A stretch of 64,000 nt of DNA. Origin: Methanorbis rubei. Lineage in GTDB: Archaea > Halobacteriota > Methanomicrobia > Methanomicrobiales > Methanocorpusculaceae. This document shows positions 1 to 6,733 of this stretch, piece by piece. The position numbers and the translations under genes were made by a program. The number at the start of each line of letters is the position of its first letter. The stretch's first letter is position 1. The DNA lies in contig NZ_JAWDKB010000007.1 in the NCBI RefSeq assembly GCF_032714495.1, positions 1 through 64,000 of the forward strand, in the 5' to 3' direction. The notes beneath the pieces are model-generated. The model was not told the origin of the DNA, did no database searches, and saw only the letters and a program-made list of their open reading frames with translations.

Positions 1-108
1 ATAGCAGAGAGGTTCCACCCGGACCCATTCCGAACCCGGCAGTTAAGCTCTCTTACGTCGGATACTGTACTGAGATACGCGAGTTCTCGGGAACTATTCA
101 ACGCTGCA
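1..108 (+). rRNA. rrf: 5S ribosomal RNA, 5' end outside the window
   Basis: The first ~108 bases match the body and 3' part of a 5S rRNA. They contain the conserved loop segments CCCATTCCGAAC and GGCAGTTAAGC and a closing GATACGCGAG...CTCGGGAAC arm. Only the first ~10-15 bases of the gene are missing at the window edge. No 23S or tRNA is visible downstream, so this is either the end of an rRNA operon or a solo 5S gene. The exact 3' end is uncertain by a few bases. Confidence 0.93.
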
Positions 109-182
109 CCCCCTTCCTTTTGATTGATTGTTTTGTAATGTTTTTTTGAAGAGCGGGGAGCTTTTGTGAATTTTGTTTGAAA

Positions 183-364
183 TGAAACGCGAATAGCGCG
201 AATCGCATGCCTTCGGCCTGCTCACCGCTTCTCGGAATAAAAATTTTCAGGATAGTATTCAAGGATTATTTTTTGGATGCATCTGGTTATTCAAAAATAT
301 GCTGATAATTTTCTTTATCTTTTGAAAAATCGCCATTGGCGATTTTTTATTCGCGTTTCACTCC
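183..364. repeat. Palindromic repeat, family II (CGCGAATA / AAAATCGCC)
   Basis: The left end carries CGCGAATAGCGCGAAT followed by the GCATGCCTTCGGCCTGC module. The right end carries AAAAATCGCCATTGGCGAT and then ATTCGCGTTTCA, so the outer ends are inverted repeats. The same arms occur at 11126-11284 and 38051-38551. No credible gene lies inside. Confidence 0.75.
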
Positions 365-387
365 AAACAACAAAAGTCTCGTCGACC

Positions 388-471
388 ATGACCCAAGCAT
401 CTGCTCCGGTGTTCGGCATGGTTGTCGGGCTGTTCGCAGCTGGTCTGCTGATCAGAAGGCGACTCTCGTAA
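388..471 (+). pseudogene. Orphan C-terminal membrane-anchor fragment of a surface protein
   Basis: This reading frame has no plausible 5' part; upstream it runs into a palindromic repeat. It encodes about 27 residues ending APVFGMVVGLFAAG...RRRLS and a stop: a short Pro/Phe/Gly motif, one hydrophobic helix, then an arginine cluster. That layout resembles the C-terminal sorting tags (PGF-CTERM-like) of archaeal surface proteins. A near-identical tail occurs at 4724-4807. I read it as the remnant of a surface-protein gene whose body was lost or replaced. It could also be a tiny membrane peptide. Confidence 0.5.
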
Positions 472-588
472 GAGAGTAACCACTCTTCTTTTTTCTGCTC
501 AGGACTTGGTGTCAAGTCTGGGTAAAACCGCGCACGAACCTCGCAGACCCAATGGCTCGGTTGTATTTCATGCGAATTTGAAAATACG

Positions 589-664
589 TTTCGAGAGTTT
601 TTTGATCAGTAATTTATGGCGAATATGTGGTTTTTGATCAATTCTGATCAGCAATCTCTCGAAA
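589..664. promoter_or_regulatory. Inverted repeat with TGATCA sites upstream of the surface-protein gene
   Basis: TTTCGAGAG (589-597) and CTCTCGAAA (656-664) form inverted arms. Between them, TGATCA occurs three times (about 603-608, 635-640, 645-650). The rest of 472-886 is AT-rich with no gene. This may be an operator or hairpin for the gene starting at 887; function is inferred from position only. Confidence 0.35.
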
Positions 665-886
665 AAGAATCTGCGAGAGGTCTTCAATCCGGATTTTATG
701 GTCATACATTAGGTCTGCTTGAAAATAAAGCTCAGAATGAGTAGAACGGAATAATTATTCTCGCGAATAACCCGGGCAAGTTTTATTTTCTCTCAAAAAC
801 CACGTACAAATGTCTTAGGATTACATGACCTGATTTTGAGAAACTCTGCTGTTTCTGCAAGCTCATCTCTCCTGAGGAGGAATCAC

Positions 887-3800
887 ATGCTTTTACGAAC
901 ATGCGGGACACAATGTCCCAAAACCGAGGCAGGAGAACTTGGACGCGGTGGTGTACTCGCGGTCAAAGCTCCTGAACGAAGAGAAGACCCAGACCGCACT
1001 ATGGCTGCGGCTGCCGCTTCTGAAGGAAAAAATACTACAAAATATCTCTGGCTTGCAACTACCTCTCTTTTACTAATATTCTTGCTGATGGCGGGAGCTG
1101 TCAGTGCAGAAGGATGGAATGTCGTTACAACAGCAGAAGAACTGCGATCCAATCTCACTGTCGGCAACAATGTAACACTTGGCGACTCTTTCACCGATGC
1201 AGGCACATCCTCACTGATCATTGAAAATGCAAATCCTGTACTTGATCTGAACGGCAAGACGCTCACTTTTTCGGGAATTACAAATAGTGCACTTGTCATC
1301 GGCAATGATACCGCAAACAAAAAAGGATCACTCACCATTCAGGACTCACTCGGAAATGGTGGAATAAAAGTACCAAATGGATACTTATTTTTCGTGCGAA
1401 ACGCCAGCACTCTCACCCTGAACGCAGGTTCGTTTGAGGCAAAATATTTTGTTGTCTCCACAAATGCCAACGGAGAGTGGAATGACCCAACCATCACCAT
1501 CGGCCAGGATGTGACCCTCACCACACCAGACACAGCGATCTATATCCCTGCACAAGGGAGCAACGTGACCATTACCGGTGCGAAAATCAACGGAGGTCTT
1601 GGTGGAGTATGCGTCGCATCCGGTAATGTTACCATCACCGATACCGAGATCACTGTTTCGGGTCAGAGTAGCCCGCGATGGAACGACGTAGACGGATCTG
1701 CAGATGACGGATCGGCTGTTGTAGTGCAGAAAAAGAGTGCTGCATACAAAGGTGATGTCAATCTGAAACTTCTGGGCAACACCGTCGTCGACGGTCCCAC
1801 CGCAGATGCACTGCATAATTACATCCGCAAAAATCCTGATGATCCAGGAAAAACCACCGTAACTATTGCAGATACTGTTCGGTTCAACGGAGCACTCAGA
1901 AGCTATCAGTATGGTACCGCCACAAGTGATATCGGCGGCATATTCCAGAATGAAAGCGGCGAAATTCTTCTCTATCCCGGTTTAAGTCAGGATGGTGTTG
2001 CATGGGGCGGTGACGCCGTCAATGGCTGGACGCTTACCATCTCCAAATCCGGCAGTTACAAACTGATGGAGAGTTTCGATTACGCTCCCTACACGAGTGC
2101 CAACCGGCTTTCTATCACCAATGACGTAACCCTCGATCTGAATGGTCACACCATCACCGCTCAGAGAGCCTCATCTGCTGGTGATACCGCATTCATCAGT
2201 GTGAGCGAGAAAACGCTGACCATCAACGGAAACGGAGGTGGAATTTCCACCTCAGGTACAAGTTCTGACGGTTTCAAGTCATGTCTCTTCCTTGCTGGAA
2301 AGAACAGCACATTAACGATAAACTCTGGAACATTCTCCAGCAACGGAATTGTCATCTCTGAGAACGGAGCTGTAAGCCCGAGTTATGCAAACCCAACCAT
2401 CATCCTCAACGGCGGAACTTTCACCTCATCGAACTCTACGGCGGTTTACATGACTGCGGATGACGGCACGCTTACCGTTGCAGACGGAGTTGCCATCACC
2501 GGCAAGACTGCGGGTATTGAGATACGCTCAGGCAAGGCAGAAATCACCGGCGGCAAAATTCATGCAACCGGCAGTAACAATTATCCGCCCTTATCAGCGG
2601 TTCCTGCAAACCCAATCAGTGACGGCTCGGCTATTGTTCTCGTTTCAAAACCGGATGCATACACAGCAGATATTGAGTTGACGGTTGGTGGAACCAGCAC
2701 AGAGCTCATCAGCACGAATGGTGCAGCGATCCGCAACTATGTCCGCAATGGGGATGGAAAGGGCGGTATCAAAGCCTCTAACGATACGATCAACGTGATC
2801 GTTTCAGATACCGCGAAGCTTTCCGGAAAGACAGCAGTGATCGAGAACACTCATTACTCCGGCGATACAACTCCTGTCGTCGGCACCTTCAACCTCAACG
2901 GCGGTTACTACAAATGTACTGATGCTGCCGCGGGAGTTCTGCTGAAAGATGTTACTCCCACGTATCTGGCGAATCACATTATGAGCGATACTCCGGTCAT
3001 GGACGGCTATTACGGCATCATCTCAGTCGAACCGATACATTCGCCGGGCGGAACGGTTAATGATGCCTGCGGCTGCATCGATGTCAGTGCGGGGGACATA
3101 GAACTGATTGGAAACACAGTAAACATCACCGTTCCCGAGATATCTGGTGTGGTTGCCGTAAACTTCACATTGACCTATCCGGGCGGGGTAGAGGTATATG
3201 GAAACCAGATTCAGCCAAATGTCTCCGGCGAGATCCCCAAAGTAGAGATGATCTATTCTCCGGTTTCACTGAGGGTTTTCGAAGTTGGTCGGTTTTATCT
3301 GACAGTTGAAGGAAATCCAACCGGAGCAGAAAATCTCTCCAGACTTCTGAACGGGACTGCAATTCCGTTTATCTCAACCGAAATAAACGATGAGGCGAGA
3401 GACAAACTTCCCACTACAGCTGTCTACATCGGCATGGTTACGGTGGATTACACCAACTACAGCAGATATGTTGGCACTCCAACCCTGCTGATGACGTTTG
3501 GCATTCTGGATGTCGGCGAGTTTGAGGGCATGGATTACCGGAAAATATTTGTTTTCCATGTTGACAAGGACGGTAAGGTAACGAAGATACCCACAACTCA
3601 GAGTTATCATGGCAATGATTGGTACACGTTCACCGCCACTTTCACCGATGCATCTCCACTGATTCTTGCCTATGATCCGAGCGGCGGCCCGGGCCCGGTT
3701 CCCCCGGGGCCTTCAGATTCTTCTGACGGCAACATGGAAAACGCGTTCCGTGTCCTCTTCGATTCCAAAGGCGGCAGTTTTGTACAACCGGCAACGTATC

Positions 3801-4372
3801 TTTCCTACGGTGACCGCGTTCCAAAGCCCAGTGAACCAACTAAAGATGGTTACACTTTCTCAGGCTGGCACAAGGATGAGGCATGCACGATTCTCTGGAT
3901 CTTCAGCGAGGATGCAATTCCTGGCGACATGACGCTGTATGCGAAGTGGATCAGCACCGCAACTCCAGTTGTAACCCCGTCAGTAGAACCGACAACAGAG
4001 CCTCCGGTACCAACCATGCAGCCCACCGCCGCACCAACAATTACGGACGTCACCATCTCACCGCCGATTGAGATTGATGACGACAGCAAATCTGGTACCG
4101 AAAATAACGGGGTGTTCTTCATTATCCTCCTACTGTTGCTGCTGTTCCTCCTGTTCCTGATCTATCTCCTCCGCCACACCGTAATCTTCCTTGTTCATAC
4201 AGCGGAAGGTATCGAAAAGTATCGCATCAGAATCTGGCATGGGAAAAAAATCGATCCGAAAAAACTACCCGAACTTCTCAGAACAGCCGACTGGTATCTC
4301 GACAAAGAACACAGTAACCGCTGGGACATGAAAGAAGATCGTGTCACCCGAAATATCACGCTCTATCACTAA
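887..4372 (+). CDS. Giant surface protein: beta-helix repeats, InlB-type repeat, C-terminal membrane anchor
   Basis: About 1161 residues. The start at ATG 887 is chosen for the GAGGAGG ribosome site six bases upstream. Residues 1-50 form an odd hydrophilic extension before a signal-type hydrophobic helix (~52-71) ending AVSA. Two long halves (~nt 1120-1980 and 2025-2950) repeat the theme VTLDLNG(K/H)T(L/I)T, typical of right-handed parallel beta-helix adhesins. A Gly/Pro linker follows. Residues ~953-1021 are an InlB/Flg_new-like repeat (GYTFSGWHKD, LYAKW). After a Thr/Pro-rich stalk comes a Leu-rich transmembrane helix (~1073-1095) and a basic cytoplasmic tail of ~65 residues. Likely a cell-surface adhesin or S-layer-associated protein; the ligand is unknown. 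The tail differs from the short RRR anchors found on both sides of the gene. Confidence 0.85.
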   Translation: MLLRTCGTQCPKTEAGELGRGGVLAVKAPERREDPDRTMAAAAASEGKNTTKYLWLATTSLLLIFLLMAGAVSAEGWNVVTTAEELRSNLTVGNNVTLGDSFTDAGTSSLIIENANPVLDLNGKTLTFSGITNSALVIGNDTANKKGSLTIQDSLGNGGIKVPNGYLFFVRNASTLTLNAGSFEAKYFVVSTNANGEWNDPTITIGQDVTLTTPDTAIYIPAQGSNVTITGAKINGGLGGVCVASGNVTITDTEITVSGQSSPRWNDVDGSADDGSAVVVQKKSAAYKGDVNLKLLGNTVVDGPTADALHNYIRKNPDDPGKTTVTIADTVRFNGALRSYQYGTATSDIGGIFQNESGEILLYPGLSQDGVAWGGDAVNGWTLTISKSGSYKLMESFDYAPYTSANRLSITNDVTLDLNGHTITAQRASSAGDTAFISVSEKTLTINGNGGGISTSGTSSDGFKSCLFLAGKNSTLTINSGTFSSNGIVISENGAVSPSYANPTIILNGGTFTSSNSTAVYMTADDGTLTVADGVAITGKTAGIEIRSGKAEITGGKIHATGSNNYPPLSAVPANPISDGSAIVLVSKPDAYTADIELTVGGTSTELISTNGAAIRNYVRNGDGKGGIKASNDTINVIVSDTAKLSGKTAVIENTHYSGDTTPVVGTFNLNGGYYKCTDAAAGVLLKDVTPTYLANHIMSDTPVMDGYYGIISVEPIHSPGGTVNDACGCIDVSAGDIELIGNTVNITVPEISGVVAVNFTLTYPGGVEVYGNQIQPNVSGEIPKVEMIYSPVSLRVFEVGRFYLTVEGNPTGAENLSRLLNGTAIPFISTEINDEARDKLPTTAVYIGMVTVDYTNYSRYVGTPTLLMTFGILDVGEFEGMDYRKIFVFHVDKDGKVTKIPTTQSYHGNDWYTFTATFTDASPLILAYDPSGGPGPVPPGPSDSSDGNMENAFRVLFDSKGGSFVQPATYLSYGDRVPKPSEPTKDGYTFSGWHKDEACTILWIFSEDAIPGDMTLYAKWISTATPVVTPSVEPTTEPPVPTMQPTAAPTITDVTISPPIEIDDDSKSGTENNGVFFIILLLLLLFLLFLIYLLRHTVIFLVHTAEGIEKYRIRIWHGKKIDPKKLPELLRTADWYLDKEHSNRWDMKEDRVTRNITLYH

Positions 4373-4652
4373 GAGCGCTGTATAATATCCGACAGATTCA
4401 CACTGATCCCCTATGTGCGATCCGTGTGAATCTCTTCGTTTGGATTACTGATCGATGTGCACTCTTGTCGTCTTCTGGGCATATGTCGGTAAATATCTTC
4501 AGAAAACCCTCAAAAATCACTGCTGGCGTTGTTTCATTTGCGTTATTTACGCGAAACTGCGAAGCTGCGAAGCAGTGAACACGGCGGAATGGTATGTGAT
4601 TACGACCCTGCTTGCAGGGGAACCAAGCAAGCCATAGGTATGCGAGTGAATC

Positions 4653-4730
4653 CGAGCCGGGTTGATTCTGTGGGCTGCTCCGCCCATTACGGGCGGAAGC
4701 CGTCCCACATTAGAATCGAAGCGGGGAGGG
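4653..4730. repeat. Palindromic repeat, family IV (GATTCTGTGGGCTG / CACATTAGAATC)
   Basis: GAGCCGGGTTGATTCTG begins the element. A GC-rich hairpin (CCGCCCATTACGGGCGG) forms the centre, and CATTAGAATC..AAGCGGGG ends it. The element shares these blocks with 5986-6094 and 6331-6442. It runs directly into the orphan anchor fragment at 4724-4807, so a repeat now replaces the missing body of that gene. Confidence 0.7.
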
Positions 4731-4807
4731 AGGCTCCTGCTCCGGTGTTCGGTGTGGTTATTGGGCTGTTCGCGGCTGGTGTACTGATGAGAAGGAGGTC
4801 TCCATAA
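4724..4807 (+). pseudogene. Second orphan C-terminal membrane-anchor fragment
   Basis: The in-frame tail reads APAPVFGVVIGLFAAGVLMRRR plus two residues and a stop, matching the fragment at 388-471 at most positions. Upstream it is continuous with a palindromic repeat, not with protein-like sequence. Together the two fragments flank the intact surface gene at 887-4372. They are probably decayed or recombined ends of surface-protein genes. Expression as a small membrane peptide cannot be excluded. Confidence 0.5.
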
Positions 4808-5122
4808 GACGAAAAACCGTCTTCGGGGTGCGAGAGAAAAACAACTTCTCTTTTCCACTCCGCAAGATTATTTAAGCAACGGATGATATTACATTGAGAG
4901 TACATTTGGTCTCATGGTGAGGCCACTCGTCACTGCCAAACCGAACTCAAAGGCTGCCTGAGGCAGTACTGGCGGCCATAGATAATTCTGCGCAAAATAT
5001 GATGATCCAGATACTTTTCATGTAATTCCTATCTGGAAATGGGTACACACATATGCCCGCCATCAAAACAGCACACTGCGCGGGATTATCTGCCGATACC
5101 GGTAAAAAACAATTTTTTTTTG

Positions 5123-5493: not shown

Positions 5494-5985
5494 ATGCCAC
5501 TCGACTTCACCCCCACCTCTATTCAGAAAGCCGCAAAACGCGTCTTCACGGTGCCCATCACCAATGCCGCCGCGTTTGATGCAAACATCGCCGCACTCAA
5601 AGACGAGACCAATCCTCTCGGCACAATCGCAGGCGGCATCACCACCACCGAAGCGTACTACAAAGCAACGATCGCCTACCTCAACCCGCTTGGGAAAGTT
5701 CTCGGCACCATTGTTGTCACCGCCCCGACCCGTGATACCTATGACAGCGTGATCGCAGATATTCTTGCAGACACTGCCATCAGCACTGCGTTTGGTGAGA
5801 ACACCATCGCCGACCGCAACAATACCAAAGATAACTGGTACGTCAAACTCAGACTCCGCGACCCGACCGGCGAGACCTATTACCTCGCCTTCAACAGAGG
5901 GGAGCTTAAGATCAGCTCTTACGGAGATGATGCCATCCTCGCCAGAGCCGAGGCATGGGCGGATACAATCACCAACCTAAACTAA
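5494..5985 (+). CDS. Unrecognised 163-residue soluble protein
   Basis: Not recognised. The start is ATG 5494, preceded by the purine stretch AAAGGAAACAACTGAA. The product is Thr/Ala-rich with no signal peptide or membrane helix. The N-terminus TPTSIQKAAKRVFTVPIT is followed by several short predicted strands, and the C-terminal ~70 residues (NWYVKLRLRDPTGETYYLAF) look like a beta-rich fold. Codons strongly favour C in third position, as in the lipoprotein gene downstream. It lies among palindromic repeats in an accessory region, so recent acquisition (plasmid or virus) is possible but unproven. Confidence 0.65.
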   Translation: MPLDFTPTSIQKAAKRVFTVPITNAAAFDANIAALKDETNPLGTIAGGITTTEAYYKATIAYLNPLGKVLGTIVVTAPTRDTYDSVIADILADTAISTAFGENTIADRNNTKDNWYVKLRLRDPTGETYYLAFNRGELKISSYGDDAILARAEAWADTITNLN

Positions 5986-6094
5986 CCGCCCCGCTTCAAT
6001 TCTAATATGGGACTGCGGGCCTTTGGCCCGCAGCCCCATAGAATTAAACCGGCTCGGCATCTCTCGTCCCTTCGGGACTCGGTCTCACGGTTGA
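5986..6094. repeat. Palindromic repeat, family IV, left copy
   Basis: Starts one base after the preceding stop codon: CCGCCCCGCTTC..ATTCTAATATGGGACTGCGGGCC, a GGCCCGCAG return arm, then AACCGGCTCGGCATCTCTCG and CTCACGGTT. Most of it is the reverse complement of 6331-6442, so the small gene at 6142-6291 sits between inverted copies. The hairpin directly after 5985 may also act as a transcript 3' end. Confidence 0.75.
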
Positions 6095-6141
6095 TTGAGA
6101 TTATTTGAAAACTGACTACACAACGAAACGGAGAAACAATC

Positions 6142-6291
6142 ATGGACACCATCACCACCATCCTCATCATCGGCATTGCTGCCCAAGGCATTACCGGCGC
6201 TGTCCTCATCCTCGCAGGACCCATTTACGCCTGGAACGACCGGTGGCTTGACAGAACTCATCGGACAACTGCTGATGAAAATCGGGAGTAA
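6142..6291 (+). CDS. Small putative membrane protein (49 residues)
   Basis: ATG at 6142, preceded by CGGAGAAACAATC, opens a 49-residue frame. It has one hydrophobic helix (ITTILIIGIAAQGITG through LILAGPIYAW) and a charged tail (RWLDRTHRTTADENRE). It is not recognised. The last 50 bases are repeated 200 bp downstream. The two differences between copies are silent in the +1 frame (GGLTELIGQLLMKIGSK) but change residues in this frame, so the original tail may have been read in the other frame and the gene may be frameshifted. Confidence 0.45.
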   Translation: MDTITTILIIGIAAQGITGAVLILAGPIYAWNDRWLDRTHRTTADENRE

Positions 6292-6330
6292 AATCTCGAT
6301 CTATTTTTTTAAAATTCGTTTTTCCTGCTT

Positions 6331-6442
6331 AACCGTGAGAACGAGTCCCGAAGGGACGAGAGATGCCGAGCCGGTTTGATTCTGTGGGCTGTGCCGCCCG
6401 TTACGGGCGGAAACAGCTCACATTAGAATCAGAGCGGGGCGG
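6331..6442. repeat. Palindromic repeat, family IV, right (inverted) copy
   Basis: AACCGTGAGAACGAGTCCC...GCCGAGCCGGTTTGATTCTGTGGG, a CCGCCCGTTACGGGCGG hairpin, then CATTAGAATCAGAGCGGGGCGG. Reverse-complement homologue of 5986-6094 and direct homologue of 4653-4730. It lies between the two copies of the 53-bp direct repeat. Confidence 0.75.
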
Positions 6443-6494
6443 GTGGCTTGACAGAACTCATCGGGCAACTGCTGATGAAGATCGGGAGTAAAAT
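6442..6494 (+). repeat. 53-bp direct duplication of the end of the small gene
   Basis: Bases 6442-6494 repeat 6242-6294 with two mismatches, exactly 200 bp apart, starting GGTGGCTTGACAG and ending GAGTAAAATC. The intervening DNA is a family IV palindrome. This is either a segmental duplication of the gene 3' end or a trace of element insertion. The rest of 6495-6733 shows no gene; it is the AT-rich upstream region of the lipoprotein. Confidence 0.8.
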
Positions 6495-6733
6495 CCCAAC
6501 CTTATTTTTTGCGCGAACCGCTCAGTCCAATATCACATATCAATTCTGCAAACAACTCCCCTTCCTCCCTCTCCCGAAATCCTCCTCATCCACATTGCCC
6601 CTCGTTCTCTCATCAGGTACGTCATAGGGAATTTCCTGAAATTTCATTTCATTTTGAAAACCAACCTCATATAACTGAGAAAAAAATTGTAGTTAAAGCT
6701 ACCCTTTTAATCTCTACAGACCAACGATAAGAT

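Follow-up and report, generated by a model that had tools for sequence, protein, structure and literature searches.

The locus beside the rRNA operon

The window analysed here is the 64,000 nt that begin contig C7 of a 1.83-Mb Methanocorpusculum genome, and it opens inside a 5S rRNA gene. The features of interest are the following, all on the forward strand.

1-112 (+): 5S rRNA gene, lacking its 5' part because the contig begins within it (Rfam RF00001, 66.8 bits)
113-375 (+): rRNA 3' flank with the dispersed repeat RepB at 325-357 (BLASTN to L049 1-416; colinear with G004:C9)
388-471 (+): orphan tail 1, ATG at 388 to TAA at 471, homology from about 376; MTQASAPVFGMVVGLFAAGLLIRRRLS
472-886 (+): spacer colinear with a C1 array spacer (559-897 against L001 9153-9491, 60.9%, E 9e-14)
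887-4372 (+): surface-protein gene, ATG at 887, 1161 aa (Pfam PF09479, 65.9 bits)
3746-3946 (+): Flg_new domain at the joint of body and anchor (DNA 3719-3950 is 80-82% identical to paralogs)
4055-4369 (+): alternative anchor, a membrane helix and cytoplasmic domain (RHTV...LYH), from alignment and a Flg_new profile match
4370-4478 (+): 3' flank travelling with the alternative anchor, 92.8% identical to G004 L024 12732-12840
4595-4730 (+): dispersed hairpin module (4595-4645) and palindromic repeat RepA (4643-4730)
4724-4807 (+): frame of orphan tail 2, homology from about 4731, fused to the end of RepA; APAPVFGVVIGLFAAGVLMRRRSP
4832-5108 (+): conserved element, 72% to L049 2155-2442, at which colinearity with G004:C9 resumes
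5494-5985 (+): gene for a 163-aa protein with no Pfam or NCBIfam match; RepA and a 49-aa ORF typically come after genes of this family
6142-6291 (+): 49-aa membrane ORF, conserved in L001, L049, L110 and L115
6331-6441 (+): another RepA copy, with direct repeats on both sides (6242-6309 and 6442-6510, 91%)
6442-6491 (+): residues 35-49 of the 49-aa ORF as an orphan 3' end, which serves as a control for tail 2

The corresponding contig of a sister species (G004) begins at the same 5S base, is colinear with the window up to about 375 and again from about 4830, and holds other cargo between these points; the segment 376-4830 is therefore lineage-specific. The G004 cargo at this rRNA-flank site is another gene, 1.4 kb long, which matches nothing in Pfam and lacks an anchor of this kind; neither tail is present there. 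In a further genome, G005, only about 0.7 kb separates the 5S gene from the next conserved gene. The preliminary description of this DNA had envisaged a place where surface-protein bodies are exchanged. Compared between species only, the site does differ in cargo between the two, but what G004 carries is not another body of the surface-protein family.

The same description had both tails running upstream into repeat DNA rather than a protein body. Neither has a body, and tail 2 does sit directly on RepA (4643-4730). What precedes tail 1, however, is the 3' flank of the 5S rRNA gene, ending at about 375, of which some 18 nt of locus-specific sequence, also found in the sister species, separate RepB from the tail. 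An assembly misjoin at RepB is unlikely because of this conserved stretch.

The element at 4832-5108 also occurs at L074 4879-5017 and L001 11879-12038, in addition to L049. It is non-coding, lies downstream of several surface-protein genes, and its copies end in a common TCTGCCGAxACCGG. An Rfam search of 4832-5108 returned no family at the gathering threshold, and we regard the element as a candidate small RNA or regulatory element.

The tails belong to a family of surface-protein ends

Both tails are intact 3' ends of a PGF-CTERM-like surface-protein family and encode PVFGxVxGLFAAGxLxRRR, the motif that the preliminary description had noted at 388-471 and 4724-4807. An HMM made from 14 other tails, with both window tails excluded, scored tail 1 at 55.3 bits and tail 2 at 45.1 bits, while the next frame in the window reached 5.2; the full tail HMM gave top scores of 4.8-10.0 on ten Markov-random windows. 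Together, these scores rule out a chance origin. Both tails have kept an open frame, their stop codon and every invariant position, and neither has a signal peptide or stalk.

The tail also ends other, full-length proteins, as the preliminary description had anticipated. At E <= 1e-9, 38 tails were found across four genomes (G000, G004, G008, which is M. petauri, and G024). In the same genome, the tail terminates two genes of the C1 array (L001, 937 and 744 aa) and three C5 genes (L031), and these paralogs carry a signal peptide and stalk, that is, a secreted-protein context for the tail. An archaeosortase A, likewise expected, is encoded there as well (TIGR04125, 204 bits, C1:115497-116288). 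Standard PGF-CTERM membership was rejected, as scores fall short of the curated cut-offs: tail 1 reaches 14.6 against 24.5 bits for TIGR04126 and 15.5 against 18.8 bits for PF18204, and tail 2, in its frame, 13.6 against 24.5 bits for TIGR04126. Three long proteins with canonical PGF-CTERM ends (G000:C10:3304, G000:C10:20076 and G000:C5:169461; 34.8 bits each) are candidate S-layer proteins, two of them at opposite ends of one short contig (C10).

Could the tails be translated alone, each as a membrane microprotein with one helix? An in-frame ATG starts tail 1 as well as a duplicate tail at G004:C6, and the frames are open. Tail 2, however, lacks that ATG; the longer frames that contain the tails read through repeat DNA with no conserved start or signal peptide, and the sister locus has neither tail. 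We consider independent expression very improbable.

Within the family, the tails resemble those of the arrays. The DNA of tail 1 is 81% identical to L001 8794-8909 in the C1 array, and the order of tail 1, spacer and gene is that of an array junction. A tail tree, based on 66 bases only, places both tails among the C1 and C3 array tails and unites them with two G004 C3 tails in one clade (support 0.895). We had also considered tail 2 as a specific descendant of a tail of the G004:C3:58k type, which has the same downstream element; the tree gives this no support. The two window tails are each other's best match (82%), and together they bound the lineage-specific segment at both ends (375/376 and about 4830). 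This arrangement could reflect homologous recombination from tail to tail, in which an array unit of tail, spacer, gene and tail was excised and then integrated at a pre-existing tail. However, the pairing is weak, since the runners-up match at 79-80%, the event would require an already body-less tail at the target, and RepA is fused to tail 2 and absent at tail 1. We therefore regard such an event as unlikely.

The gene between the tails is built from exchangeable parts

The 1161-aa protein consists of a signal leader, a repetitive body, a Flg_new domain, a P/T-rich stalk, a membrane helix and a Flg_new-like cytoplasmic domain. The earlier observation that the intact gene uses a different anchor from the tails thus holds, the last two parts being that anchor. 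The cytoplasmic domain spans about 66 aa and its resemblance to Flg_new is supported by a profile match of 95% over 46 columns, from which we class it as Flg_new-like. The parts of the protein have different nearest relatives. The leader resembles those of array genes; the body, with matches taken from alignment coordinates, is closest to a G024 protein that has a PGF tail (57% over 477 aa); and the stretch from Flg_new to 106 nt beyond the stop is nearest to a G004 gene with a GLUG body (84.7% at the DNA level). The 3' end has 79% protein identity to a G004 gene with a different body. Measured against the genomes sampled, gene 887-4372 is by these alignments a mosaic. A search of genome contigs with the entire 1161-aa protein yielded no passing match.

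The alternative anchor is complete in 5 of the 232 genomes of the order, with a 27-aa fragment in a sixth; all six are Methanocorpusculum, with one or two copies per genome. It occurs in five proteins with four body types: GLUG (twice), the body of the 1161-aa protein, Flg_new_2 and LRR_5. The third member of the G004 C3 array is an alternative-anchor gene, and the matching C1 array here has no such gene. A gut bacterium carries the same anchor design: in a Lachnospiraceae MAG from sheep colon, L091 5092-6156 encodes a 355-aa protein made of Flg_new, a membrane helix and Flg_new. Transfer of this design between gut bacteria and methanogens is possible.

Other gene pairs in the family behave similarly. 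In one M. petauri pair, a 207-nt leader is 99.0% identical and Flg_new 90.7% identical, but no part of the bodies aligns at 80%; in G024, the genes at C8 and C6:89k are 86-91% identical at both ends with a diverged middle. On these comparisons, the swapping of bodies and anchors in the surface-protein family is real, with Flg_new as the joint. At G008:C33 of M. petauri (L063 1300-1900, minus strand), a helix of the alternative type ends at a TGA with an in-frame remnant of a PGF-like tail immediately behind it, giving two anchors in series, an arrangement comparable to that of gene 887-4372 and tail 2.

Body-less tails were found at three further loci in the genus, and a 27-aa orphan end of the alternative anchor at G022:C3:13136-13216 (L116) is a relic of the other anchor. 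Away from contig ends in four genomes, 5 of 37 tails lie in short frames against none of 46 Flg_new domains (p = 0.015). These small numbers suggest that relics in the family are mainly 3' ends.

Since the anchor type switches between body families, the tails might be silent donors, kept as spare anchors that recombine onto surface genes in the manner of orphan Rhs and CdiA ends; for the Rhs ends, re-fusion onto the main gene by recombination is known (PMC3967940). However, the orphans here lack the upstream shared segment (Flg_new) that this would need, and in a self-BLAST neither tail is similar to the present 3' end of gene 887-4372, whereas the published rhs case has 522 bp at 95% identity (PMC3967940). 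A donor role is improbable.

RepA and copied gene ends

The second RepA separates the complete end of the 49-aa ORF from a 5'-truncated copy of that end, which lies 1.7 kb from tail 2; at the equivalent site, G004 has a single ORF end and no RepA. A unit of 163-aa gene, RepA, 49-aa ORF, RepA and truncated ORF copy (5494-6510 in the window) recurs at several places in the genome (noted for L001, L049, L110, L114 and L115). Among 21 RepA copies in two related genomes, several of them clustered and with junctions classed by our own reading, 12 abut an opposite-strand stop codon, 7 a 5'-truncated gene end on the same strand and 2 neither. Five of the seven truncated ends derive from the 49-aa ORF, which is unrelated to the surface proteins. 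Direct repeats of 69-198 bp surround five RepA copies, and at several loci the gene end is thus also present upstream. For example, at G004:C6 an intact tail precedes RepA, and the tail is repeated after RepA together with 30 nt of 3' flank (98% identical); the duplicate adjoins a gene that has retained its own tail.

Tail 2 conforms to this pattern in all but one respect: the 260 bp upstream of RepA contain no intact partner, and its history as a duplicate is consequently drawn by analogy. An empty-site alignment at tail 2 could not fix a precise target duplication, as the left half (4595-4645) is a dispersed module; being a repeat, that module cannot prove descent. RepA folds as long hairpins (-61.3 and -46.8 kcal/mol), a palindromic structure as in a MITE. 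A short fixed target-site duplication of the MITE type was not found at RepA, where flanking repeats are 69-198 bp and variable, or absent. As a tentative conjecture that we think possible rather than likely, RepA may be a mobile or recombinogenic Methanocorpusculum palindrome whose insertion at the 3' ends of genes duplicates long target stretches of variable length; it would thereby make start-less spare ends and loosen the 3' ends of surface genes for anchor swaps at Flg_new.

Origin of the two tails

We favour, with a probability of roughly two in three, the reading that the tails are non-functional relics of a repeat-linked 3'-end duplication (tail 2) and an array rearrangement (tail 1), and not part of a programmed exchange system. 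They would be the 3' remains of PGF-CTERM-like genes of the archaeosortase type, lying in the lineage-specific segment of about 376-4830 and belonging to a family with fast turnover. An array-derived segment of tail, spacer and next gene would have come to the rRNA 3' flank with the upstream body missing, tail 1 being the very end of that lost array neighbour. Tail 2 would be the product of a RepA-linked duplication of a 3' end. The primary tail in front of RepA was then probably lost as recombination at Flg_new gave the gene the 3' module it has now (Flg_new, stalk, helix, cytoplasmic domain and 3' flank), and the spare tail stayed behind; we infer the order of these two steps. Both tails probably have no function. 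Against the relic reading, the open frames, stops and invariant positions are retained beyond what old relics need, and tail 1 lies away from any RepA copy, so that two separate histories must be invoked.

The preliminary description had instead read the tails as the footprint of a cassette locus, an expression site at which surface bodies are repeatedly exchanged by recombination and an anchor tail is left each time. In favour of this reading, bodies and anchors of the family demonstrably recombine, the rRNA-adjacent site carries different cargo in the sister species, and relics are biased to 3' ends. Exchange within the family is real, but a dedicated cassette locus as the source of the tails is not supported. 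The sister cargo is a gene with no match in Pfam and without such an anchor, and orphan tails also occur at unrelated loci, at G004:C6 beside a gene that is still tailed. The RepA pattern copies the ends of a non-surface ORF too, and tail 1 is better read as the end of a lost array neighbour. We consider the cassette locus unlikely, if slightly less so than recombination from tail to tail.

The relic reading explains a pattern that might pass for a cassette system. The analysis also shows a methanogen genus combining leaders, bodies and two kinds of anchor interchangeably into surface proteins. One of these anchors has the Flg_new-like cytoplasmic domain that a gut Lachnospiraceae protein likewise contains. 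RepA-linked copying of gene ends is one way in which gene fragments could arise in an archaeon, and it is open to test.

Comparison with known systems

The nearest published parallel to the tails is found in the orphan 3' ends of rhs and cdiA, which a newly inserted 3' end has pushed out of place (PMC3967940, PMC6336857). As there, the tails are start-less 3' fragments of a large surface gene, and tail 2 (4731-4807), a family 3' end, lies downstream of an intact gene with a different 3' end. Unlike them, the tails encode an anchor instead of a toxin and immunity gene, belong to an archaeon, and in one case are fused to a palindromic repeat. Long segments in common with the main gene allow the rhs and cdiA orphans to re-fuse; the tails show none.

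RepA resembles REP elements and MITEs (PMC2817692, PMC10969869) in that it is short, palindromic and non-coding, lies at the 3' ends of genes in either orientation, and is polymorphic between species. What sets it apart are the 69-198 bp direct repeats found with several of its copies and its fusion to truncated gene ends, and no transposase has been identified for it here.

The tails share with the PGF-CTERM/ArtA signal (TIGR04126, PF18204; ArtA, TIGR04125) a tripartite C-terminus of short motif, hydrophobic helix and basic cluster, placement on secreted, stalked surface proteins, and an ArtA gene in the genome. They differ in their motif, which is P-x-x-G (PVFG) and not PGF, in their sub-cut-off scores, and in the two copies that have no body.

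Lastly, Flg_new and GLUG proteins have been proposed as features of host association in methanogens (PMC9723798). The adhesin-like proteins described from host-associated methanogens, in which Flg_new is the Listeria-Bacteroides repeat, likewise contain both domains in large surface proteins, some with PGF-CTERM (PMC9723798). In the family analysed here, by contrast, Flg_new joins exchangeable bodies to two anchor types, and an extra Flg_new-like domain stands behind the membrane helix.
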